From Chiua virens (Eukaryota > Basidiomycota > Agaricomycetes > Boletales > Boletaceae): DNA of 64,000 bases. Shown here piece after piece: positions 16,265 to 52,454 of this stretch. The position numbers and the translations under genes are program-made. The notes below the pieces were generated by a model. That model was not told the origin of the DNA. It made no database searches and worked only from the letters and a program-made list of their open reading frames with translations. The first letter of the stretch is position 1; each line of letters opens with the position of its first letter. The DNA is taken from assembly GCA_019787685.1 (NCBI GenBank), contig JAHNUO010000023.1, positions 310,001-374,000 of the forward strand, in the 5' to 3' direction.

Positions 16265-17500
16265 AATTTCTGAGAAGCGTTCGTCACGACGGTAGACAGT
16301 ACATTGATCAAAGAGGAAACACTGACGTTGCCGTAGATCGGTTTCGCAAGACCCTGCCAATAGCTTTACATACATACTTACAACGGGCAGCAGGAATGAT
16401 TCGTTTACGTCACCCATGAACATACAGATACATTCCAACATGCGTATGGTAAGTAGGCGTCATGCCAGTAGAACTTGTTCTTGAGCTCAGAACTGACGTA
16501 GCTCACTGAGTGTGCTTGACGGTCACAACATACGTAAAAGCCAATCATGTACAAACAGTTCGTTCATACCGTAAACATCGCTAAGTAATAGCCTCCAATT
16601 GATCAATGATTTCCGCGTTCATCATTTTGTTCCCAATGTGCCAGCCACCCCAAACCTACACAGAACGTGTTGACACTGCCTACGCCGTTAGATACGGAAC
16701 TGTCCATACCAACCCAGACGATGACGTGGAATGTCGGCGGAAGTCCCTTGAGGCACGAACGTTTCAGACCCTGGCCACTGTAAAGCCTACCCTGACCCTG
16801 GTCCTGGTCTCAGCACTGTAGCCGAACAACGAATTGTCAGGCGAGTCCCCCGCAATCTGGCGTGTGCCCGAGTAGCAAGTCATTCCTGGTCTTCACTCGG
16901 AATTATGACCTCGCACATTCTGGAAGAATGCTAAAAATTCACTGAGGATCACCTTTGTCGAACCCTCTTGTTTTCCCGCTATAGATGATAACCTTTTTCG
17001 CCTGAATTTCAAGTGACCAGGCAGATTACGCGTTTCGATGGTGCCTGCAGGGATGTGGAAGCACGGACTGACGTCACGCATTGGTGCTTATTGTGATCTG
17101 TAAATGTGTGAGTAGAAGGACGTACTCAGCGAGGACTGGCAGGTATGCTAATGCGAACTCTGGATTAGTCGGTACTCGCCATGTCTCTAGACATACATAT
17201 AAGTTCATTTCTAGGTCACCTGTCCGAAGACGCTCAAATTCAGGAACTGGTGGGACTTCATCCGCCCTGTTGCCTTAGTAATTCTCAGCATCTCACACCG
17301 ATGACGTACTGAACCGCAATGTCCTTACGACAAGTCTCGACTAAGTTGTTGACCGCCGCTCCATCGGAACTGGCTGTGAAGTTGATGCTGACTGATAAAA
17401 TCGAGCATACATATAGGGTGGTAAATATTTTCCCGTTCTCTTCCCAAGACGTCTCACGTACTTCCTGAGGTAGCGCCATATTTCAGAGGTTGGTTGCGCC
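16265..17500. other. intergenic, no gene seen
   Basis: About 1.2 kb between the BTB gene and the HET-like gene. Open frames are short, lack splice partners and show no family motif. The last few hundred bases presumably hold the promoter of the gene at 17501. Confidence 0.45.
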
Positions 17501-19789
17501 ATGCCCTCCCGCTTCTCAGCCTTCAGAGACCTCCTCTGGCGTCGGTCTATTCCCGTGGACGCAGGGTCGTCCTCGCAGGACCGTAAGTCCCATTTGCATG
17601 CCACCTCGATATTGGCTTATGCGTCCTCAGTCCCCCGTAGCGAGTCCAGGTCGCTCCTTTCGACATTTATATTGCGCCAACATAATCAAGAAACCATCAC
17701 CTGCTACGATTACCTTGGAATCGCCAAGTCACATGGACCAGAGCAGAGATATGTCAGCCCTACTACAGGAATCTGCCGCAAACTCATTGTGCAGTCTGTC
17801 AACCCGAAAGGCCCTGGCGAACAGCGGATCATGGATCACACTACCCAGGCAAGCAGACTTGCCATGTGGCTTGTCTGCACAAACCCGTTCTATGATCGCG
17901 TCTTTTTCAAATGGATTAGCACATGCTTTTTTTTCTCCTTAAAGCTCCTTTGGTCTTTCATCTGGTTCCTCGTGCAATTCCTCACTCCGATGGATCTAAC
18001 AGGCAACTCGGACTCGGGAGAGGACTCAGCCGTGTATAACACCGGGTATTACAAGCCCTATCAACGCCCGTTCGTAGGCCAACTCTGGGCAGCTCGTTCT
18101 CGTAAAGAGTACTCTTCCCGATTCCAAGAGGGGAACGAACAAAGTATCCCAATACACTCCCTCTACCCACGCCTCCTCATGCTACATGATGCTACCAAGG
18201 ACCAGTGGATTCCGTGCACGGACCCTGACACCATCATCCGCACCAAGTACATCGCCATCTCATACTGTGCCGCCGACATATATAGTCACAGCCATAATCC
18301 GGAGAGAGAAAAAGAGGACTTCATAAAGGACGTCCATGCTGCGGTTGTGCGACAGAATTTCGATGCATACTGGCTCGACCTGGAGTGTCTAGGCCAGACC
18401 CCTGAGGAGAAGAAGTTGGACTTGTATTGCATGGCGGACGTTTATCGTAGCGCAGAGCTTACCCTTATCATGCTTGGCGACTCAGATAGCGTTGCGGATG
18501 GATGTGATGCATGGAAACGCTGGGGAGATCGTGTTTGGACACTCCCTGAAGCTCTCCTCAGCCAGCGCCTGCATTACAAGTTCCGTGATCGGGCTGAAAT
18601 CGAGTCTGTCTCACTCCGACAACTCGCGAATCTCGCTTATGCCAAACACGACCTGGAGCAACCAGTCATTAATGCGTACAGCGGGAAAGACCCGTTGGAG
18701 AGACTCGAACGTCTTACCCTCTTGAAGGGGGCGATATGGAGGCGCGGTATTACGCTACCGCAACCGATTTCAAAAACAGCTCCAGTCCTCAATGTTAGTG
18801 CAGAAAAAGCCGTTGTTATTGATGGCCCATATACAGCAGATCGAGTTTATGCCCTCATGGGCTTCTTTGAACACCGCATCCAGCCCAGTCGTTTTGAAGA
18901 CGAACTGCGCGCGTTGGCACGTCTATCCATGGCCAATGACAACGACCGTATCGCCGAGCGTATGGTCTCCCTCCTGCCATCCACCATCACCCGATCATCA
19001 TGTTGGTACGCAGACCACGACGTTTACTGGGCGAACCTCTGGGACGTCATCCCTGAGATCCAAGTCGCAGGCATAACGGAGAACGGTGCGCTCGTCCTCG
19101 ACGGGTGCAAAGCATCATCCATTCGATGGAAGGACTTTCCCGAGATCGCATTTGACAAGTCTGATTCGGTCAGGAGGACGGTCGTCGGGTTCTTACCCCA
19201 GCTCTCGTGGCCCATCATCATTGTCGGCCTCGCCACATGGTTGACGGGAGTCACTGTCACGGGCGGGATCACGCTGTTCGCGTGTGGGTTCGCCCTGCTT
19301 GTTTTCTCCCCCAGGTTGTTTGTGTTTAGCGAGTCGGGTCGTGTGATGGACGCTCAACCGTGGCTCATCGGCATCAAAGGTGTCCTGGACATCGACAAGG
19401 CCGCCGTCCACCTCTATGGCGGGGGCAACAAGGGACGTTATCCGCGCCTCGGCCTCACGCCTAGCGGCTCCGAATTCGCAGTACCTGAACAGGGCAAGGA
19501 TCGTGGAGGTTCTCGGGTGCAGTATGACCTTGCACTCAGGGCCGAGCAGGGATCGCAAGCTGGACGGACCTATACGCTCATCGACACCTATTCGTCGACG
19601 GTGTACTACTTTTGCGCGGACAAGCCGCCGACGGTGTGTCTGTTTACCGGTCGCGAGGGCGGGTTGGGGAGGTTCGTGTTGTGCTCGGAAAGGTGTGAGA
19701 AGAACGAGTTGCACAAGGAGACGGTGTTGAGGATGCCGACCGAGGTGAGCCAAAAGATGGAATTATGTGGGTGGGTTGCTCTTGGGTAA
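17501..19789 (+). CDS. HET-like domain protein with membrane segments, paralogue 1
   Basis: Two exons (17501-17582 and 17631-19789) give 746 residues. The 48-nt intron is stop-free and in frame but is supported by an intron at the same place and phase in the paralogue at 50110. The central part has the pattern of heterokaryon-incompatibility (HET) domains: IRTKYIAISYC, FDAYWLDLECLGQ, EEKKLDLYCMADVYRSAEL and LIMLGD, then WGDRVWTLPEALLS and a later DRVYALMGFFEHRI. There is a hydrophobic stretch near residues 120-150 (FFKWISTCFFFSLKLLWSF) and a double one near 550-600 (IIVGLATWLTGV, LFACGFALLVFSPRLFVF), so the protein is probably membrane-anchored. HET domains are linked to allorecognition cell death in ascomycetes. 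Their role in basidiomycetes is not established and none is claimed. Confidence 0.75.
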   Translation: MPSRFSAFRDLLWRRSIPVDAGSSSQDRKSHLHATSILAYASSVPRSESRSLLSTFILRQHNQETITCYDYLGIAKSHGPEQRYVSPTTGICRKLIVQSVNPKGPGEQRIMDHTTQASRLAMWLVCTNPFYDRVFFKWISTCFFFSLKLLWSFIWFLVQFLTPMDLTGNSDSGEDSAVYNTGYYKPYQRPFVGQLWAARSRKEYSSRFQEGNEQSIPIHSLYPRLLMLHDATKDQWIPCTDPDTIIRTKYIAISYCAADIYSHSHNPEREKEDFIKDVHAAVVRQNFDAYWLDLECLGQTPEEKKLDLYCMADVYRSAELTLIMLGDSDSVADGCDAWKRWGDRVWTLPEALLSQRLHYKFRDRAEIESVSLRQLANLAYAKHDLEQPVINAYSGKDPLERLERLTLLKGAIWRRGITLPQPISKTAPVLNVSAEKAVVIDGPYTADRVYALMGFFEHRIQPSRFEDELRALARLSMANDNDRIAERMVSLLPSTITRSSCWYADHDVYWANLWDVIPEIQVAGITENGALVLDGCKASSIRWKDFPEIAFDKSDSVRRTVVGFLPQLSWPIIIVGLATWLTGVTVTGGITLFACGFALLVFSPRLFVFSESGRVMDAQPWLIGIKGVLDIDKAAVHLYGGGNKGRYPRLGLTPSGSEFAVPEQGKDRGGSRVQYDLALRAEQGSQAGRTYTLIDTYSSTVYYFCADKPPTVCLFTGREGGLGRFVLCSERCEKNELHKETVLRMPTEVSQKMELCGWVALG

Positions 19790-20127
19790 CCTTGGAAAAT
19801 TAATGCTGCCCCCTTCATGATGACTCGAGGATCGAAGTATTGCCTCGTGGTGGTAATGTTACACTGGGCTGCATTCAAACGTGGACTAATGGTATGCCAC
19901 GAAAACGATCTGTAATATATAACTATGACAGTTGGCTTAGTGTTCATTCGGGACATATACTAGCTTTCTGGTCCAGATCTGATATATGTACCTCCTGATA
20001 ATTGTTCTGATCATAGGAAACTTTGCTTTGCATTGTTATTATACGTCGATTTATGCGTGATTTCGAGTGCAAAATAAGTATTGTCATGATAGTATCGTGA
20101 TAGACCCGCGATCCACAAACGATGGAA
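19790..20127. other. convergent 3' spacer
   Basis: 338 bp between the stop codons of the HET-like gene (plus) and the kinase-receiver gene (minus). AT-rich, no gene seen; it must contain both 3' ends. Confidence 0.5.
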
Positions 20128-21530
20128 TCAAACCAAGATCGCGGACCACCTTCGTTTTCCTTCCCGTATCTCCTTCGCATCTTCCTCCAATCCTCGCTTC
20201 TCACCAACGCCACCAACCCTCGAGAATCGCTCGTCGGAGAGACTCATGCCCGCCAGCGGATTGATCCGTCCGTCATCGTCACAGCTCTGGATCGACGACG
20301 ACGACGCGGCGCCAATCGCGAGCGCTTCGTTGAACCTTCCATCTGATGAGGGTGGCACGCCAGCGGGCGGTTTTGGTAACTTGGACGTTTGTTGAGTCAC
20401 TTTGAGATGCATCAGGTGTTTCTGATCATGGCCACATTTCAGGCATGAATTCACCAGGGATGACATATGAGCGCACCTCGAGCATGTCCAACAACCCCTC
20501 CTTCGTAAATGGTTTTGGAAGGATGTCATTCATTCCAGATGAATAGTACGTCATGATCTCACTTGGTTTTGAGTTGCTGGTCATAGAGATGATGGGCGTC
20601 ATATGGTCAAACTGCCTTATCAGCGACGTGGCAGAGATCCCATCCATCTTGGGCATCACAATATCCTATAATCCAACGCGTCGAAGTCAACCCCAGAAAA
20701 GGAACAAACGTCTAGGCGCACCATTAAGACCAAGTCATACTTTTCCAGATTCATCTTGGTCACCGCACCGACGCCGTCCACAGCCACGTCGATCGCACAG
20801 CCAAAGACTTGCAAAAACTTGCTGCTCAGCCGTCGACTTACCGCATCGTCATCCACTAGCAACACACGTGGCGGCACTGCCCACCCGGGAACGAACTCGG
20901 TCGAACGATGCACGTGTAACTTCTTACTCTTAGGTGCATCATGATTCTGCGTAGGAGGATTCCACGGGGCCGGGGGGAAGATAAAGGCACTGGCACCGAC
21001 ACCGACACCAGCATCAGTCCTAGGGTCGTGTTTCGGGATATACTTCTGTGCTAGCCGTGAGAGGGTATTTTGGCCAGAAGTGACAGTCAGGTCTGTCCCG
21101 CTTGACGACGAGGATCTCGTCCTCGTGCTTGTCGATTTCCCAGCGCTATCCTCAGCGTTACTTCGTGGCATCAAATACTGGAGCAGGTACGCCCCCCCAA
21201 ATGCATCATGGTTCTGCGAAGGAGGTGCCCACAGTGGTGGAGGAATGAGAGTGAAGGCATTGGCACCAGCAGAGGCCCTGGAGTTCTGCTTCTGGATATG
21301 ATCCTGTTCCCGACGTGAGAGGGCATCTTGGTTCGAAGTGACAATCACGTCTGTCCCGGTTGGCGAGAATCTCGTCGTCGTGCTTGAACAAAAGGGAAAG
21401 CCATTCTCAGCGCGTCGAGACATCTCGTTCATCTGGACAGGACTCGGACCCGCATGCGCGATGGCACTAGGACCAGGGTGCTCGCCGAGCCCCAGAGAGG
21501 ATGATGATGAGGGCGGACCGCTCGAGGGAC
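20128..21530 (-). repeat. segmental duplicate of SKN7 C-terminal half (copy)
   Basis: From near the stop codon up to the LGLGEHP codons, this segment matches 23808-25250. It has the same order of exons and introns, and the intron inside the receiver differs at only a few positions. Flanking DNA beyond the stop codon does not match. The duplication therefore covered about 1.4 kb of SKN7 coding sequence and stopped close to the stop codon. Confidence 0.85.
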
Positions 21531-22788
21531 TCGTGGGTGTAACGGTTTGAGGAAACCTGTTATGCCGATGCCAATGCGTCAGAATATGACAGAATTAAGA
21601 TCATCGTTAATACCATGTGTGCGCTCCTTTAATAACAACCCGGTCAACATGGTGGCTTGGATCAGCCACGAGAGCTCCATGTTGACTCAGCGAACACGAC
21701 GTTGGCACTTCCGCTGAAACATCTACTCCGGTTGATGACGGTATAAAAACGTCACAAAGGGAGTGAAACGGTGGACAATTGCTGAGGAAAAGTTCGATGG
21801 TAAAGGCTATCGCTTGTGCTGTGGGTCGCTTCTCGGATGACGACCAGCAATGTTGAATTAGGTTCCAATGCGAATCATCAATTGGTCGAGACTCCGGTCG
21901 GCCTGGCTTGTAGCCCCTTGCCAAGCGCAAAACGACGGCCACATCTTCGCGTACTTCCGACCACGGCTGTTTTCCAGACAATACCTGCATGAAGATCAGT
22001 ATAGATCCGCTCATGTGCAGGATTTAAAATTGCCTGGAGAGCGACACAGCCAAAGGAGAATATATCGGTATTTGTAGTCCGGTTACTTAGCGTTTCGTCT
22101 GGATCAACTTGCTCTGGTGCCATCCATCGTGTTGCACCCGGTCGTGCAGTCGACCTCTGTAGATATGCAATTGCTTCGGGGATATTCCCCACCAAAGAGG
22201 CATATCCAAAATCCACCAAGCGTGCCCTATAATCCGCATCGAGAAGCACGTTATTCTGCCCTGCGATTAGCTCGGACAGACGAGGATGATTCTTTTCTGA
22301 CGCACGGTGTTCAAGTCGCCGTGAATGATTGGAACAGAATGCACTGGCAAGCGTTATTCTTTTCGAGTATCCGAAATCATAGTTGGGACTCACAGTAATC
22401 TAGGCCATTAGCGATATCCAGTAACTGTCGAGTGCGGTCAGAAGGATACAAGGTTCTCGGACGTGAAGCAAAACGCACAATTTGAAGTCGATGTCCCAAA
22501 CCTAGATCCGCATCGTGCTTCGTTAAGAAGAGGTGAACTGATTGGTTGGGCATCCACAGGGATACCAGTGACATGGCCCCATCCATTCCAAAGCCATATG
22601 CAATACCCAGGAAAGGAGCGATATTTTCATGCTTCAATCTCCTCCAGATTCCAAGTTCTCGTCGAAGCATCTGCACAATGATTTGTATCCACACTTGGAT
22701 GACGCATAGATGACTAAGTCACCTTGTCGGATTTATGGCCTGCTTCTCCATCGATCGTGAAACTAAATCGAAACGATTTCACCGCAAC
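20128..22788 (-). CDS. chimeric protein kinase fused to SKN7-type receiver domain
   Basis: Nine exons could be placed, all in phase: 22788-22723, 22670-22479, 22424-22394, 22343-22306, 22255-22034, 21984-21614, 21556-20722, 20665-20477, 20421-20128 (at least 745 residues). The kinase part resembles the tyrosine-kinase-like family common in agaricomycetes: VAVKSF, RRELGIWRRLKHENIAPFLG, DIANGLDYLH, catalytic loop HGDLNTNNVLL, VDFGYASL, RWMAPEQV, VLSGKQPWSEV. A 57-nt intron (21557-21613, gtattaac to cataacag) joins it to FPQTVTPTSP, and then to a copy of the SKN7 C-terminal half. The receiver keeps the acidic pair (VDDDAVSRR), the phospho-acceptor Asp (DIVMPKMDG), the Thr (ISMTSN) and the Lys (LPKPF). 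Oddities are Asn in place of the usual catalytic-loop Lys, a GC-AG intron (21985-22033), an internally repeated linker, and a shortened tail. The N-terminal exon with the glycine loop was not found. Confidence 0.78.
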
Positions 22789-23807
22789 CTAGAAAAGAGA
22801 CATGCAGTTGGTAATTTGATCCTGACGATGCAACACGTGAGATCGGGCGGAGGTGGACATTCCAGGGCATTGCTAGTAAAAAAAAAAAAGGTTTGAACCA
22901 GAACAAAGTATCGGACGGACGACAGACACGCAAAATATCGGACGTACTCGGGTCCACTGGCAGACATCTGGAATGTCCATGATGACAACCTAGGGTATCC
23001 GTTAGATTGCATAGGAGGTACGATTGTGGTGTATGGGTAAGCAGAGCGGAAGAAAACGACGAGCTTTAGTCTAAGGAACTCGTACAGCAATCGTGTAGCG
23101 TATACATCCACGTTGATACCACGAGGGGGTGATACAGCGGCCGTTATTACTAGTACTACGTACTGTATTAGTAACGTACTCCATACGCACCTTGCTCAGG
23201 TTTTCTGCGAAGTACCTCGGAATTCAAACGTTTTGTGCGAGGGAAAAACATATTCGTCGAATGCAGTCCATTAAAAGCGTTAGTGGTTAACTCCCATATT
23301 GGAACATCGCCAGTCATCGTGAGGATCAAGTCCAACGTCACGGCTCCGAATCTGATGAGTGGTGAACGTTTATGGTGAGGTGCCACAGTTTCTCTGCGGA
23401 CCAAGAGCGCAGGGCAGCTCCGGCAGTTCAAGTTATAAGTTCCGAGAGGCACGGGATTCCCGGGGTCCTAACCAAGAGCCGTGACGGAACTTGAAGCATC
23501 GTTCTAAACAGACGAAAAGACAATCTTAGAGAAACTGAATTGCTACACATCCCGATATCGTATCCGATTCAACATTTTACATCCTTTTCAACGACAAACT
23601 TAAATTCGTATACAGTAATCAATCACCCACGACGACGAATGAGAGGAAATGAACGAACGCAGTCGAATGAGGCATGTAGGGCATGAGGTGTGATGTATGT
23701 CTGTCCGCACGATGCATAAAAAAAGGCGTGTCAGAATGAGAAAAAGAGTAAAAAGTAAAAGGTCAGTGGAAGCGCAGCGCTGGGTATACCGCACCGCAGC
23801 GATGGAA
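22789..23807. other. region upstream of the kinase gene, 5' exons not resolved
   Basis: It should contain the promoter and missing 5' exon(s) of the kinase-receiver gene. Fragments such as MDIPDVCQW (minus, about 22975) or the open frame 23168-23452 (minus, with LIRFGAVTLDLILTMTGDVP) could belong to it, but no splice path to the VAVK exon was convincing. A run of about a dozen A lies at 22879-22890. Confidence 0.35.
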
Positions 23808-25250: not shown

Positions 25251-27423
25251 CCGCTGCGCTTCTTGCGCAGGCAAGAATTGCATTTGTTGATTTAAACTTT
25301 GCAGCGCTTGACTGTTGGGTGGAACCTGAGTTTGTGTATGCCCTAGCGCTTGTAATAACGATGACGATGATGTAGATGGAAGTGGTGGAGCTGGTGAAGC
25401 TATCGCCATGGGTTGGAGAAATGGACTGGGTTGAGGCTGCGAGTTGACAAAGAGGGAAGCTGCTGCAGACGCTGCATTTCCCGTACCTGTTGCAAACAGG
25501 GACGGGGGAGGATGGGTACTAGGTGTCATGCTGTGGGCAATGATTGGGGGAGCAGGGGATGCCACGGGAGTTTTTGGCTGAGGGACTGAGGAGGGGGCGG
25601 CGAGTGTGAATGGTGCCGTTGTGGGTGCCGGCATCTGGGATGCCATACTGTCCTTGGGTTTCGCTGCCTATGGGTAAGTATATGGAACGGAACGGGAAGC
25701 AGGTAGTGATAGCAATAAATGAAAAAGTCCAAAGAGTACCGGCAACACCACTGTTATGCAGGCACCCGTTGGCTTCAAATTGATTGCGCGACGACGCTCG
25801 CAAATGTCCAATAACATCATACAAACCAAGCCTCGATCACACGACCCAACATTGATAACCCGATAAGCGAGTCGCCCATACAAGACCAAGAAGAGAACAC
25901 AGAATAGGGAACGGAAAGTGAATCAGACAACTACTCACCTTCCATGCCTAGAAAATACTGGATCAGACCCTGCATCAAGGCATCCTGCTGTGCCATATTT
26001 TTCTGGAAATTGACCATCTCTCCGAGGACATCACGATAGCTGCGCTCAAGGCCACGCATACGCTCTTCGGATCTGCTCAACTGCGCGCGGAGACCATCAT
26101 TCTGGACCTGCAGAGAGGCGATCTGCTGCTGCAACGCGGAGACCGAATTCTGGAGACCGGTGGACATTGTCTGGAGGGTGGCGGTCTGTGACTGAAGAGA
26201 ATTGGTCTGTGACTGGAGAGCGGTGGTCTGATTCTGAAGGACGGATGTATGCGAGGCGAGGGTGCTAGTCTGTGCGTGGAGAGACTCCACGTCCCCGGAT
26301 GCTGGCCCTGGCGAGCCGGCAGAGACGGAACGAAGAGAAGAGGAGGGAGCATTGCTTTGGGCGGGTTTGCGCATAGCGGGGACCTTGCGCTTTATGTTTT
26401 CGAGGGCGTCGCGCCTGTCGACATGAAAATCTGGATGGCGAAATGTCCAGGAGTGTTCGCCAAATTGGGAGTCGTCGGTGTTCTTGACCTGCAAGGAGGG
26501 TGTTAGCTATCCGGATATCCGGGCCGTCCCTGGTGTCACGGATTCCCATGACCCCCGAAAGGGGTGCCGGGGATCGCACAAAAAGAAGGCAGTTTACGCT
26601 CGATCGTGCCCCGTTTCACACACGCCATTATCGAAGCACGCCAAAAAAGAAGGCGAATTCCCCAGGCCAGTAGGCGATCGCGCGCTCGCCAACGATCAGC
26701 TCACCTTGTGAAAGTCATACTTGTTCAGCTGCCGCACGAATGACGCAAAATTCGAGTGTTTGAACAGCCGAGGGAGAATCGCTTTTGTGAATTCGTTCAT
26801 GTCCTACCAACACGGTCAATATTACTCCTGATACTGCATGTCGCTGGTGCATACCTTAACCACAAAGCAGTCCCCGCTTGGGGCCCATGAGACGACGTTT
26901 GAAAACGCCTGATCCTCCAGCATCCTGCCCCCGATATCGTTAGATGTTCGAATACACCACAGTGGAGCACTCACTTGTACAGTTTCTTCACAAAGTCACA
27001 TGTTGCCGGCATGTTATCGTCCACATCCTTGCTCAACGCCTGTGCGTGCGGGGGAGGCGGGGGAGGCTGTGGGGGAGGCAGCTGCTCCCGTTTCATCTGT
27101 CTGGTCTCCGCGGGTCTCGGTCCGGGCTGGTTATATGGATGGTGGAGTGTGCTTGAACCTGGGAGGATATCTTCCCGAGAATTCGATGTACGGTGCATCG
27201 TACCAGACCATGTCAGAGAGGAACTCGGCGGGGGTGACACATGACGGTGACCATATGGGGAGACCCGGGCGGAGGGTGAGTTGAGTGGCGGTAGGGTATT
27301 AACGTTTGAACGCGAAGGATTGACCGGTGGAAGGTGGAGCTGGGAAGGTGGGGGAAGGTGGGATGAGTGGAATAATTGTTGTCGTACTGAGGAGTAGGGC
27401 GGTCCTTGGGATGGTGGATCCAT
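23808..27423 (-). CDS. SKN7: SKN7-type response regulator transcription factor (HSF DNA-binding plus receiver)
   Basis: Start at the ATG at 27423 ([10 protein letters not shown]). The first exon is proline- and serine-rich with a PPPPPP run. An HSF-type DNA-binding domain spans several exons: [66 protein letters not shown]. Next is a long glutamine-rich coiled coil with heptad-like LQSQT units, ending near FLGMEG at about 25945. After a poorly resolved intron (about 25670-25940) follows a low-complexity linker, then the receiver domain with [19 protein letters not shown] (phospho-acceptor), ISMTSN and LPKPF, and a short tail ending EVLD. SKN7 is the terminal response regulator of the fungal His-to-Asp phosphorelay, acting in the nucleus in oxidative, osmotic and cell-wall stress. 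Its C-terminal half is the source of the copy in the neighbouring kinase gene. Confidence 0.93.
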
Positions 27424-37576: not shown

Positions 37577-37920
37577 GCGCTTCAAAGGGTCCTCAACCCC
37601 ACTGTCGCTCGATTCGAGGTGGCGACGGGGCGACCCTATGGACACAAAGTCCAAAAGCGTTCTCTGTGCGACACAAAGTCAGACAACAGAGAGGTTCGAG
37701 CGGCACAAAGCCAGCTCTGAATCGGGGAGCTTGGGACGAGGAAGCGCAGGCGTCGGCGCAAGGTCTTGAGGGCAATGCACGTCGATGGCAAGGAGGGCGG
37801 AGTCAGGGTCTTCTGGGAGGATGTTCGGAACGTGCGGCGCAAAGTCTTAAGCGTGGGAGTTGCGACGTGAGCAACTGGGCACGGGAGGCATCAATCTTGA
37901 GGGTGGGCGGTGACAAGGAT
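37577..37920 (+). repeat. dispersed repeat copy 1
   Basis: The core starts gcgcttcaaagggtc and contains gcgaccctatggacacaaag and gttctctgtgcgacacaaag. It shares most of its length with copies at about 41005-41310 (same orientation) and 41752-42034 (inverted). A related short block (ctgtacataacctcggtt-like, near 37410) also precedes copy 2. Open frames across it are not coding. Confidence 0.75.
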
Positions 37921-41751: not shown

Positions 41752-42034
41752 TAAAGACTTTGCGCGACGCCTCCTGCGCCTGGACCGACGCTCGTTCCAA
41801 CGACTCCGCCCTCCTTGCCACCGACGTGCATTGCCCTCAAGACCTTGCGCCGACGCCCGCGCTTCCTTGTCCCAAGCCCCGATTCAGAGCTGGCTTTGTG
41901 CCGCTCGAACTTCTCTTGTTGTCTGACTTTGTGTCGCACAGAGAACACTTTTGGACTTTGTGTCCATAGGGTCGCCCTGTCGCCATCACGAATCGAGCGA
42001 TAGTAGGGTTGAAGACCCTTTGAAGCGCTTCCCC
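41752..42034 (-). repeat. dispersed repeat copy 3 (inverted)
   Basis: Reverse-complement of the same family. The core reads ctttgtgtccatagggtcgc on the plus strand and ends tttgaagcgcttcccc. With copy 2 it forms an inverted pair separated by about 440 bp. Both copies also share an extra block, agaggggaagcgc, next to the core. Confidence 0.75.
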
Positions 42035-44765: not shown

Positions 44766-47700
44766 ATGGCCACTACCTTCAGGTGCCACCCAGATTGTTC
44801 CCGCACCTTCTTATCCCGGAGGGGCCTGACGCAGCATCGATCTACGTGCGACGTTTACGGTCCTGCACAGGCTGAGCGACTCGCACGCGCTAGTTCGACC
44901 TTTCTGTTGACGGAGGAGCCTCCCAACAAGCGGGTCAGACTTGGCGCTGATGAGGTATGGCTTTCTATCATGAATTCTTTGAATGTGTTACTCAGATGGA
45001 TTCCAGTGCGATAGGCAATCAAATCTTCCAGGGCCCTCGAGTATTGGTCCTTTGGCGTTGGTCACGGAGGTCAGTGAGGTGAGGTCTTGCCCATTTCGAG
45101 TCTTTCCTGCAGCTCAAACCCTGCTCCTTCTGAATCAGGGCATTTCGAGTCAGCAGCGACCACATGCCCATACCCAAGATGCCCCACCCTCGCAGGTTAC
45201 ACCCGATGCGCCCATTGAATCTTCCTCGCAACAAATACCCGATGCCCCTGAGATCGCAAGCCAGCCCCTTCCCCCTCGTAATCGACGACTGCCTGCAAAA
45301 TATCGAGACTTGCTCCCTGAGCCACCGTTGCCAGCAATTGACCCCCATCCTGCCCCTGCGACCACTTCCATTATCCCACGTGTCTTTCTGCACGTGTGGG
45401 ATTCCTTCACCACACAGTTCAATAAGTTCGGCATTGCGCGTGCATATCGCCATCGCCCATCGCACGATCCCGACTCTTTTGTTTCTATGGAGGAATTGTC
45501 TCAGTCTAGCCAGGACATTCTCCCTAGCTCGGCCAAGGCATTGCATGGTGACTACGTCCCGCCTTGGCCATGGTCCAATATGTCTATCTGGCGACTCATG
45601 ACCTGGAAAAACACCGGAAGTACTCAGAAATCTGATTCAGAAATCACCCGACTGGTCCATGAGGTCCTCCAAGCCCCCGACTTCGACATCCAGGATCTGT
45701 CTAGGTTTGACTCCTCCAGAGAAACATCTCGGTTTGACGCTGCTGAGAAGGAAATACCGACAGGAGATGTCTTCGGGGTCGACAGATGGAAACGTACATC
45801 GGTCGACATATCAGTACCCACAAGGGAAAAGAAGGTCGAAGGCAATGGACTGACGTTCTCTGTGGATGGTCTTCGTTATAGGCCTATCATGGATGTCGTA
45901 CGAGCAGTATTCGCAGAGGTATCATCGAAGAGTTTCCATTTCACCCCTTTCAAAAGGATTTGGAAATCTCCGGTCACTGGTCGCCAGCAACGTGTCTATG
46001 ATGAACTGTACGCCTCGGACGCCTGGAACCAAGCCCACGATGAAATAATGAAACAGAGAAGAGACGACAGCTGCAAGTTGGAAAGAGTAGTTGCAGGCCT
46101 CATGTTCTGGTCGGATTCGACTCGACTCGCCCAGTTTGGGCATGCGTCTGCGTGGCCCATCTATCTTTTCTTTGGAAACCTCTCCAAATATGTTCGATCC
46201 AATCCTCAGTCAGGGTGCTGTCATCCGATTGCGTTTATCCCTTCTGTAGGTTGATTTTCTGCTTTCTTGCGCTGCTCTCGAAGTCTCACCCAACCTCTCA
46301 GCTTCCGGAGTCCATCAAAAAAATTTTATCCTCGGTGTCTGGCAAGAAACACAACCGTGACCTTCTCACTCATTGCAAACGAGAACTCATTCAAGCGATC
46401 TGGACGTTATTGCTGGACGATGATTTCGTCGAGGCTTACAAGAATGGAATCGTCGTGAAATGCTTCGACGGCATCACCAGGAGAGTATACCCTAGGATAT
46501 TTACTTACTCAGCCGACTATCCAGAAAAGTGAGTCAATTGCATACGCTTGCTGGTGTGAAACTGATTATTTGAATTTGGAAGAGTTCTCCTTGCTACCAT
46601 CCGGGACAAAGGCTGCTGCCCCTGTCCTCGCTGCCTCATCCCCAAATCAAAGTTCCATTGGACCGGATTTCTCAGAGACGTTGCTGCAAGAATTTCTCAG
46701 GCAAGAACCTACTTGGCGGATAAGATCAAACTCGCGCGACGGGCAATCTATGTACTTGGCCGGCCGTTGAAGGGTACAGCTGTAGAAACCCTTCTCAAAG
46801 ACGAATCCCTGGTTCCGACTTTGGTAAGAATCCTCTTCGACTTATTGGGAGTGACCTCACTAACCCTCTCAGAATTCTTTTTGCGAGCGACTCTCACCCT
46901 CGGGATTCAGCCTGTACCCGATTCTAGTTGTAGATTTACTCCACGAGTTCGAGCTTGGCATTCTCAAATCGGTTCTCAAGCATCTGCTCCAATTGATTTA
47001 TGCTGCCGATCCACGTGGGATCGACATACTCAATGAACGGTGTGCTCGACATTCTTCCAAGGGTAATTTGAACGTGATTGCTGACAATTAATCTGATAGA
47101 TTCATGCAAATACCATCTTTTGGATTGAACGCAATCCGCCGTTTCCCTCCGGATGTAGCGGACACAAGCCAGCGACCGGCATGGTTCTTTGAGCACGTAC
47201 TACAGGTAGGATCTTTCGCGCGTCTCGGTTTGCAGTGCTTAATGAGCTTCACTGCAGTGTTCCATCCCCGTGTTCGAAGGACTTTTCCCTCATGCGCACG
47301 ACTTAAACATTCAGCGCCTCCTATTCCGACTCTCCGAATGGCATGCATTGGCCAAACTTCGAATTCACACGGACGATTCGCTCACACTCCTCCAACAGTC
47401 GTTACGGACCCTTTGTGATCAGCTTCGCCACTTTCAACGAGCCACCTGCACCGCCTTCAAAACTCGTGAGTTACCCATGGAAGCTGCGCAACGGCAGAGG
47501 AGGGAATTGGCGGAGGTCAACGCTGGACGTCGAAAGAAAGAAGTGCGCTCAGCGGCCTTGCTCCCAAAAACATTCAATCTCAACACGTACAAGTTCCACG
47601 CCCTGGGTGACTACGTCGCAATGATCAAGATGTTCGGGACGACTGACTCGTTCTCAACCCAAATTGTAAGTGTAAAGCTTTTTCCTGAAGGTTTATTTTT

Positions 47701-50109: not shown

Positions 50110-52454
50110 ATGTCGGCGAATACCAGCCTACCTATTTCCTCCTCACTTGGTAACCCGCGCGAAAGGAATGAACCTCCGCTTACGATCCCACATCCACCTT
50201 CGCAAAATTGTAAGACCTACTCACGTGGTACTCTTCGTGACCCGCTAACACGTCCTCAGTCCCCGGTAGTCGGCTTATGTCCATCCTCCCAACGACATTC
50301 CAGCGTACACAACAGACTGTTACCTGCTACGACTACCTCGGACGCCCCCAAACTCACGGGCTAGGACAAAGATATCTAAGCCCAACTACAGGGGTCTGCC
50401 GCAAACTTACTGTACAGGCGGTCCACCCAATGGGTCCCCACGAACACCACATCAAGGACCACATGGGCCGGGCGAACAAAATAGGCCTATGGCTTGCCTA
50501 CACGAACCCTTTTCGCGGTGGGATCATGATATTTTTGAAATGGATTGGCACTTGGCTATTATTCTCTTTGAAGCTCCTCTGGTTTCTCCTCTGGATTATT
50601 ATTGCAGGATACCTCTTCGTGCAGGCAGGGATCCCTTTGTCAGATGATCCGACAGATGACTCGGAGGTGTATAACACGGGCCGTTACAAGTCCTATATCC
50701 GCCCCTTCAGGAACCAGCTTTGGGAAGCGCGCTCCCGCAAAGAGTTTTCCTCCCGTAGCAAAAAAACTGTCAAAGGACGAGACATCCGGCTGCACACACT
50801 CTATCCTCGCGTTCTCATGCTCCATGATTCTACTCAAGCTCGATGGATTCCCTGCGAAGACCGTGATACAATCATCCGCACCAAGTATATTGCCATCTCG
50901 TACTTCGCCAGAGACATGTATAACTATGGCCCTAACCTGAAGAGAGAAAAGGAGGAGTTCAAGGAGGAAGTTCGTGCTGCGGTCACGCAGCAGAATTTCG
51001 ACGCCTACTGGCTTGACTTGGAATGTCTCAGCGACGAGGAGGAGAAGAAGAAGGTGGACTTATTTTGCATGGCGGATGTGTACCGTAACGCCGAGAAGAC
51101 ATTGATCGTGCTTGGAAAATCGGAGGGCAAGGGTGACGAAAGCAAAGCATGGGAGCGATGGGGAGATCGCGTCTGGACGTTCCCTGAAGCTCTCCTCAGT
51201 CGGGATCTTTGTTGTATGGTCCGTGGACGCACTAAGATTGGATCTGTGACTCTCCACCAGCTCGCCAACCTTGCCTATCTTAATCACGAGAAAGAGCAGG
51301 CGATTGTCAACGCTTACAGTGGGAAAGACCCGTTGGAGAGATTAGAGCGTCTTAGCCTCCTCAAGGCGGCGATATTTCGGCGTCATCTTCGGAAACCCGA
51401 AAACAAAACCTCTGCGTCCGGTCCGTCCTCCTCCAATCCCGACTCCAATACAGGACAGACTTCTCAGAATATCGACTTATACGCGGCAAACCGTGTATAT
51501 GCCCTCATGGGGTTCTTCGAGCACCGCATCGAGCCCGATTATGAGGAGTTGGAAATGTGCGCGTTGGCACGCTTATCCATGGCCAACGATAGCGACAGCA
51601 TTGCCGAGCGTATGGTGTCCCTCTTACCCCCTCCCTCCAGGACCGAAACAGAAGTGAGCTGGTATGCAGATGAAGACATCTACCAAGCAAACCTCTGGGA
51701 CATTCTCCCCGAGGTTCAAGTTGCGGGCATTACGGAGGGTGGTGCACTCATCCTTGATGGGTGTAAAGCAGCATGCATCCGGTGGAAAGACTTTCCAGAA
51801 GTCGCGAGCATGCAGACGGATTCGATTAGGAGGGCGCTCGTTGGGCTTTTACCTTACTTCGCATGGCCTGCTATCATTGGTGGTATCGCGACTCGGGAGC
51901 TCACCACTACGAGCGCAGATACCCTCGGAGGCACGGTCCTGTTCGTGTGTGGCATCGTCCTGCTTCTTATGTCACCCCGGTTGTTCGCGTTCAGCGAGCA
52001 GAGTCGTGTGGTCGATGCACAACCGTGGCTGATTGGCGTCAAGGGCATCTTGGATTCCGACGAAGCAGCGCTGCGTATATTCCCTGGAGGAAACAAGGGA
52101 CCTCACTACAATATCGAATACACTCCCAGTGGTTCCCCATTCGCGATATACGAAGAGGGCAGGGAACGGGCGGGATCCAAGGCGCAGTACAATCTTGCCC
52201 TCAGGGCCGAGCAGGGAGAGTATGCTGGACGGATGTACACGCTGATCGACACGTGGTCAGCAACGATATACTACTTTAGCGCGGAGAAGCCACCCACAGT
52301 GTGTTTGTTCACGGGTCGGGAAGGCGGGATGGGGAGGTTCGTGCTGTGCTCGGAGACGTGCTACGCGAACGAGTTACACAAGGAGACGGTATTGAGGATG
52401 CCGACCGAGGTAAGCGAGAAGATGGACCTGGGTGGGTGGGTTGCCGTTAAGTGA
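50110..52454 (+). CDS. HET-like domain protein with membrane segments, paralogue 2
   Basis: Two exons (50110-50209 and 50260-52454) give 764 residues; the 50-nt intron is in the same position and phase as in paralogue 1. From TVTCYDYLG onward the two proteins align end to end: CRKLTVQAV, KYIAISYFARDMY, FDAYWLDLECL, CMADVYRNAEKTLIVLG, WGDRVWTFPEALLS, NAYSGKDPLERLERLSLLK, NRVYALMGFFEHRI, PTVCLFTGREGGMGRFVLC. Hydrophobic segments are again near one fifth (KWIGTWLLFSLKLLWFLLWI) and near three quarters (VLFVCGIVLLLMSPRLFAF). The first-exon proteins (MSANTSLPISS here, MPSRFSAFRDL there) do not align, so the N-terminus evolves fast or was replaced. Function unknown; HET-like domains suggest a possible recognition role. 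Confidence 0.78.

Follow-up and report, generated by a model that had tools for sequence, protein, structure and literature searches.

The window, a stretch of 64,000 nucleotides, covers positions 310001–374000 of contig C23 in the genome of the bolete Chiua virens (Boletaceae; 48.3 Mb in 136 contigs). It holds on its minus strand, in order, an SKN7 gene (27423–23808), a gap, a kinase (22788–21614) and a copy of the end of the SKN7 gene (21495–20120). The parent SKN7 gene, delimited by protein match and Pfam (P0003, 970 aa), encodes an HSF-type DNA-binding domain and a receiver, and the sole HSF-domain match on C23 (336693–336803, window 26693–26803) lies inside it. The kinase and the copy can be joined, by exon joining and Pfam, into an open nine-exon chimera of 745 aa (20128–22788, minus strand) with exons at 22788–22723, 22670–22479, 22424–22394, 22343–22306, 22255–22034, 21984–21614, 21556–20722, 20665–20477 and 20421–20128. 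The exon lengths given in the preliminary description (66, 192, 31, 38, 222, 371, 835, 189 and 294 nt) were reproduced to the base; they amount to 2238 nt and 745 codons without an internal stop, and the frames at this locus are open across about 2.2 kb of exons. The nine-exon model has no start codon. Exons 1–6 encode a TKL-like kinase (residues 14–243, 118.5 bits; best Pfam match PF07714, Tyr/Ser-Thr kinase), and exons 7–9 are the copied end of the adjoining SKN7 gene, with a receiver domain at residues 538–647 (91.4 bits). Among the matches listed in an NCBIfam scan, all are far below the curated cut-offs. The preliminary description was right that linker and receiver were copied from SKN7, to which the copy is 93% identical over 20228–20926, and the motifs it named (VAVK, HGD, DFG and APE in the kinase; the acidic pair, Asp, Thr and Lys in the receiver) are all present in a motif scan. 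It had also argued that chance would rarely keep nine exons in phase. That argument falls, because the phases of exons 1–6 are those of the kinase family and the phases of exons 7–9 those of SKN7, which leaves the join between exons 6 and 7 as the only free one; nine phased exons were accordingly rejected as evidence in themselves.

The copy comprises the linker, receiver and tail of SKN7 (20120–21495, minus strand; source 25247–23800). Its receiver domain, introns included, lies at 20401–20892 on the minus strand, with the phospho-acceptor Asp codon at 20665–20663, and all five active-site residues (DD, D, T and K) are found in LLVDDD, MDIVMP, PIISMT and LPKPF. Skn7 receivers are marked by a Cys at DD+17 (98% of Skn7s) and Arg or Lys at K+4 (PMC8510515), and the window receiver has this Cys and a Lys at K+4. 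It shares both with its parent, as well as an Asp at DD+1, and the two receiver proteins are identical over 127 codons. The chimera differs from SKN7 in the DNA-binding domain, of which Pfam found none in the chimera, in its rearranged linker and in its changed C-terminal end. When the tail was placed in a tree of 11 rows, the copy paired with Chiua SKN7 (95/88) on a branch of 0.42, against 0.0022 for SKN7 itself; the copy therefore arose after the other sampled bolete genera had split off. The copied linker contains an internal repeat (21001–21131 and 21259–21389, 66% alike), to which one copy in the parent corresponds.

Compared with SKN7, the 127 receiver codons carry 11 synonymous and 0 nonsynonymous differences, the 89 tail codons 21 synonymous and 21 nonsynonymous ones, and the 181 linker codons give Ka 0.40 and Ks 0.68 in a gappy alignment. 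With a further 7 differences in the 111 bases of its two introns, the receiver block has 18 neutral differences altogether, a neutral divergence of 0.093 (synonymous sites plus the two introns). At this divergence about 14 amino-acid changes are expected on an unconstrained copy, and the chance of finding none is about 1×10−6. These results indicate that the receiver copy is under selection. As it shows no amino-acid change despite its neutral divergence, and as exchange between alleles is unlikely (see below), it is very probably translated and used. A different outcome would be a dead locus, in which gene conversion from SKN7 has recently overwritten the receiver of a non-functional SKN7 fragment lying beside a kinase pseudogene. 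Synonymous divergence is indeed lower in the receiver (11/83 sites) than in the tail (21/67 sites; P = 0.009), which suggests gene conversion. A 12-letter C-terminal end, which all 10 further SKN7 rows compared keep in identical or similar form, is also missing from the copy, and the glycine-rich loop of the kinase is deleted. Gene conversion was considered as the sole reason for the identical receiver; it may account for the lower synonymous divergence, but not for the 0 amino-acid changes among 18 neutral differences. A divergent allele of SKN7 is unlikely to have been the donor, because three single-locus haplotype pairs differ by just 0.4–1.2%, though five pairs of clustered kinase loci, which are either alleles or paralogues, differ by 1.5–7.4%. 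Considering also that all frames remain open across the exons, we regard a dead locus as improbable.

The kinase half (21614–22788, minus strand) is a TKL-like core without a glycine loop. Its motifs VAVK, HGDLNTNN, DFG and APE supply the beta-3 Lys, catalytic Asp, DFG and APE of active kinases. It belongs to a family with at least 145 exon-wise matches in the genome (E of 0.001 or better), 4 of which come from the window itself and many of which are weak matches to other kinases, and it groups among bolete kinases in a kinase tree. Sixteen paralogous loci, some of which are probably haplotype copies of one another, align over the six kinase exons with small gaps (a one-base gap in L049), and their stops are confined to the unconserved tail past the core. 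We compared the core (262 codons, 253–260 of them comparable per pair) between the window and 8 chosen paralogues. In the pairs printed, the codon-position pattern of the window against the paralogues is the same as that among the paralogues themselves. Similarly, the window kinase alters 3 of 94 otherwise invariant residues and the 8 paralogues alter 2–7 of 93–98. These results suggest that the kinase core has not been free to drift for long.

The kinase is damaged at its 5′ end. The stretch that lies between PPPPDLT and VAVK in the paralogues, including the glycine-rich loop, is gone from the window kinase; related bolete proteins have about 26 residues there, with a loop such as GGGFGDVY. 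A remnant of the paralogues' glycine-loop exon (PPPPDLTCCIVRIK) survives at 22856–22815 on the minus strand; the loop and the donor of that exon are deleted, and after the remnant the window holds just the end of the following intron and then VAVK. One glycine-loop pattern matched nowhere in the three frames of 22789–23800. A candidate first exon of 11 codons (22948–22980, minus strand) begins with an ATG at 22980, which may be usable as a kinase start. It would be in frame with VAVK via a 159-nt intron (22947–22789) of middling splice sites (donor 4.8, acceptor 3.3) and without a branch-like site. Intron 5 (21985–22033, minus strand), which the preliminary description did not mention, is of the GC-AG type, and its donor gcaatt scores 4.7, compared with 5.7–7.2 for three GC donors of paralogues. 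GC-AG introns recur at this place in the kinase paralogues (gcacgt, gcaagt and gcaggt, with L040, L046 and L056 as examples); other paralogues have GT donors there, and L049 reads gaaagt. The window kinase is probably inactive. The preliminary description had envisaged a Ser/Thr/Tyr-type kinase covalently joined to a receiver, coupling two signalling chemistries. It was correct about the parts and their origin, and its architecture exists elsewhere, but an active kinase in that arrangement is unlikely in Chiua in view of the public annotation and the joining donor (see below) and because the nucleotide-binding loop is gone.

Whether the two halves form one protein depends on the 57-nt intron between exons 6 and 7 (21557–21613, minus strand). 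Without splicing, the kinase frame stops at a TAA (21609–21607). This intron had been called normal-looking. That description suits its acceptor, cataacag, which scores a good 6.3, but not its donor, gtatta following atg, which is weak at 2.4 where the lowest of 45 reference donors scores 4.1. Of the 3 in-frame GT-AG joins with a length of 45–120 nt, this intron provides the best; when the stretch was shuffled 5000 times, 462 shuffles joined at least as well and 2673 contained a join of any quality. Four of seven paralogous loci (L041, L046, L047 and L049; read by eye) seem to have an intron near this position, which favours the joining intron; against it, at one paralogous locus the annotated protein, P0022, continues across that position without an intron. 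Furthermore, RYTHESLER (21540–21514) resembles the next short exon of the paralogues in a weak alignment, and its frame differs from that of the SKN7 part, which counts against a clean in-frame capture. In the public annotation the copy is a separate gene, P0123 ('CheY-like superfamily', 397 aa, starting MNEMSRR; 20128–21432, minus strand), with exons at 21432–20722, 20665–20477 and 20421–20128, and this model does not reach the kinase. Among the best 120 of 1091 matches, no annotated Chiua protein of at least 410 aa spans the chimera.

These observations allow two transcription units, a damaged kinase paralogue ending at 21607 and an independent receiver-only protein, P0123, from 21432, which would take phosphoryl groups from Ypd1 and serve as a sink or competitor for SKN7. 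The public annotation has exactly such a protein, the joining donor is weak, the glycine loop is lost, and selection on the receiver requires no more than a receiver protein. Receiver-only proteins make up most of the unclassified fungal response regulators (PMC8510515). However, only 174 nt separate the kinase stop from the P0123 ATG, which leaves little room for a separate promoter, and the P0123 start is an internal Met of the SKN7 linker. We give this possibility somewhat less than an even chance. A single fused kinase-receiver product in Chiua, which we put at about an even chance, is favoured by the same 174-nt gap, by selection on the receiver, by a kinase core like that of the paralogues, by the joining intron being the best of three and having counterparts in paralogues, by the same architecture having arisen several times elsewhere (see below) and by one HPt match in the genome. 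Against a fused product stand the weak joining donor, the weak GC donor of intron 5 and the 462 shuffles that join as well, together with the separate P0123 model, the missing long Chiua protein, the damaged kinase 5′ end, the frame of RYTHESLER and the reading of P0022.

The course we favour begins with a partial duplication in the Chiua lineage, which put the linker, receiver and tail of SKN7 close behind a TKL-like kinase paralogue in the same orientation. Starting from the kinase, transcription would most likely continue into the copy, and splicing of the last kinase intron would join the frames of kinase and receiver. The product would be a pseudokinase, lacking the glycine loop, that bears a live SKN7-type receiver. 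SKN7 receives phosphoryl groups from an HPt protein (PMC8510515), and the receiver of the chimera would take them from histidine kinases through a Ypd1-type HPt protein, for which the genome has one match above the cut-off (C4:697237–697473). The Chiua kinase lobe would serve as a binding platform, and the effect of the chimera would come from partner binding or from competition with SKN7, not from phosphotransfer by its own kinase lobe.

The combination is not confined to Chiua. Using Pfam and protein searches, each of which scored the roughly 8000 candidates with the most words in common and listed the best 120, we identified at least 10 other database proteins that join a TKL-like kinase and an SKN7-type receiver, kinase first. 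These are P0032, P0103 and P0127 from Tulasnella strains 419, 418 and 408, P0122 from Hohenbuehelia grisea, P0124 from Pleurotus djamor, P0191 from P. pulmonarius, whose truncated receiver scores under the Pfam cut-off, and P0056, P0131, P0138 and P0167. The last four are unbroken frames on contigs of 1750–2374 nt, which suggests that they are transcripts, and P0167 represents 11 member sequences. All have the same two domains in the same order as the Chiua chimera. Every scanned kinase motif, the glycine loop lost in Chiua included, is kept in three of the ten, P0122, P0167 and P0056 (with HAD for HGD). In the remaining seven, at least the glycine loop or the beta-3 Lys is missing from the motif scan, owing to truncation, gene models or real loss. 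The Cys at DD+17 and a Lys or Arg at K+4 occur in all 9 fused receivers examined (P0191 left out). In P0103 the conserved receiver Lys is replaced by Thr, and this fused receiver is likely a pseudo-receiver; P0032 keeps the Lys. The best-scoring solved kinases for P0122 include EGFR, Eph, Src, TNNI3K and B-Raf. A structure model of P0122 (mean pLDDT 70.3) shows confident kinase and receiver folds and a linker of low confidence (residues 298–351 under 50), and informs on the separate folds, not on contact between kinase and receiver. In the intact siblings the receiver could switch or place the kinase. A further Tulasnella protein, P0004 (sp. 424, 671 aa), is named skn7 and has two receivers without a DNA-binding domain. 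Related kinases in other boletes and Pleurotus often swap partner domains according to precomputed Pfam columns; taken together, the database records P0008, P0007, P0019, P0193 and P0029 join such a kinase to WD40 repeats, a GATA finger, an AIG1-type GTPase, a caspase-like domain and a homeobox domain.

We then addressed whether the fusions share one origin. The receiver tree has 46 rows, namely 10 fused receivers (the Chiua copy included, P0191 left out), 35 SKN7-type receivers hand-picked among the hits and one outgroup. The kinase tree has 36 rows, 9 fused (the window kinase included, P0127 and P0191 left out) and 27 hand-picked others, with no Rim15 sequence among them. The fused rows require 6 changes in the receiver tree and 5 in the kinase tree, at least 4 of which lie on well-supported branches in each, and a single fused clade is rejected in both (P = 1.5×10−5 and P = 4.9×10−94, respectively, AU test). 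The kinases of P0032 and P0103 group with Tulasnella kinases. Both trees unite P0167 with Hohenbuehelia and P. djamor (96/92 and 100/98), and their fusion has therefore persisted across at least one split between genera. The placement of P0131, P0138 and P0056, which have long branches, is unsure. Part of the annotated fusions may be merges of gene models, which is unlikely for the fusion common to Hohenbuehelia and Pleurotus. The siblings and the Chiua chimera thus differ in origin, and a TKL kinase appears to have been put on an SKN7 receiver repeatedly in mushrooms.

Other systems resemble the chimera in part. Group VI hybrid histidine kinases contain a Ser/Thr kinase-like domain together with histidine kinase and GAF domains. 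Like the chimera, they have a kinase-like domain and a receiver on one chain; Pfam found neither a histidine kinase nor a GAF domain in the chimera. The kinase of Rim15 is of the AGC class. Rim15 shares with the chimera a kinase and a receiver on one chain, with the receiver C-terminal. It appears to differ in kinase type, the best Pfam match of the chimera and the best-scoring solved kinases for P0122 being TKL/TK-like, and it differs in the receiver, which in the chimera is SKN7-derived and has the SKN7 Cys. In Basidiomycota, Rim15-type receivers have an Asn at DD+1 (PMC8510515), and the window receiver has Asp there. One of the known fungal regulator classes is Rim15, in which a protein kinase carries a receiver at its C-terminus (PMC8510515). 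The earlier restriction of known fungal receivers to histidine kinases and SKN7/SSK1-type proteins was therefore wrong, and a kinase and a receiver on one fungal protein are already known. By description, the kinase half also resembles FslK, a TK-related lineage of TK-like fungal kinases that is expanded in Agaricomycetes and has known truncated members; a receiver fusion is not mentioned in the sections of PMC3937382 considered here.

A literature search by title and abstract start found no description of TKL-receiver fusions of mushrooms. Table S4 of PMC8510515, outside the scope of that search, concerns a small number of fungal regulators that contain enzymatic domains and belong to no class, and may bear on these fusions, so their novelty is provisional. 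We tentatively propose, with confidence just short of even, that Agaricomycetes repeatedly built regulators from an SKN7 receiver and a TKL-like kinase, in which the phosphorelay, perhaps together with redox signals via the SKN7 Cys, would control a Ser/Thr/Tyr-type kinase instead of a DNA-binding domain, and that the Chiua locus is one such birth beside its parent with the receiver already under selection. If made as single proteins, the fusions would tie the fungal phosphorelay directly to TK-like kinases, a group that has expanded in mushrooms and whose function is largely unknown (PMC3937382). The same receiver has entered these fusions repeatedly and independently, which suggests a readily reused input module in the SKN7 receiver. 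Active-site motifs are intact in the Hohenbuehelia member P0122 and in P0167, which is Pleurotus-like, and oyster mushrooms are open to cultivation and manipulation.

Parts of the assembly appear to contain both haplotypes (C8/C26, C7/C35 and perhaps C10/C45), and three locus pairs on C8/C26 and C7/C35 show 98.8–99.6% identity. An allelic SKN7 copy elsewhere in the assembly was considered and rejected, the SKN7 stretch being found on C23 only. In the neighbourhood of the chimera, an open frame with a HET domain (heterokaryon incompatibility) at 17474–19786 on the plus strand lies directly downstream of the SKN7 copy, and another at 50241–52451 on the same strand is about 71–73% alike over matching stretches. 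A Plavaka transposase domain is located at 44983–46251 on the plus strand, near two inverted repeat units (37577–37804 and 41802–42028) that are about 94% alike.
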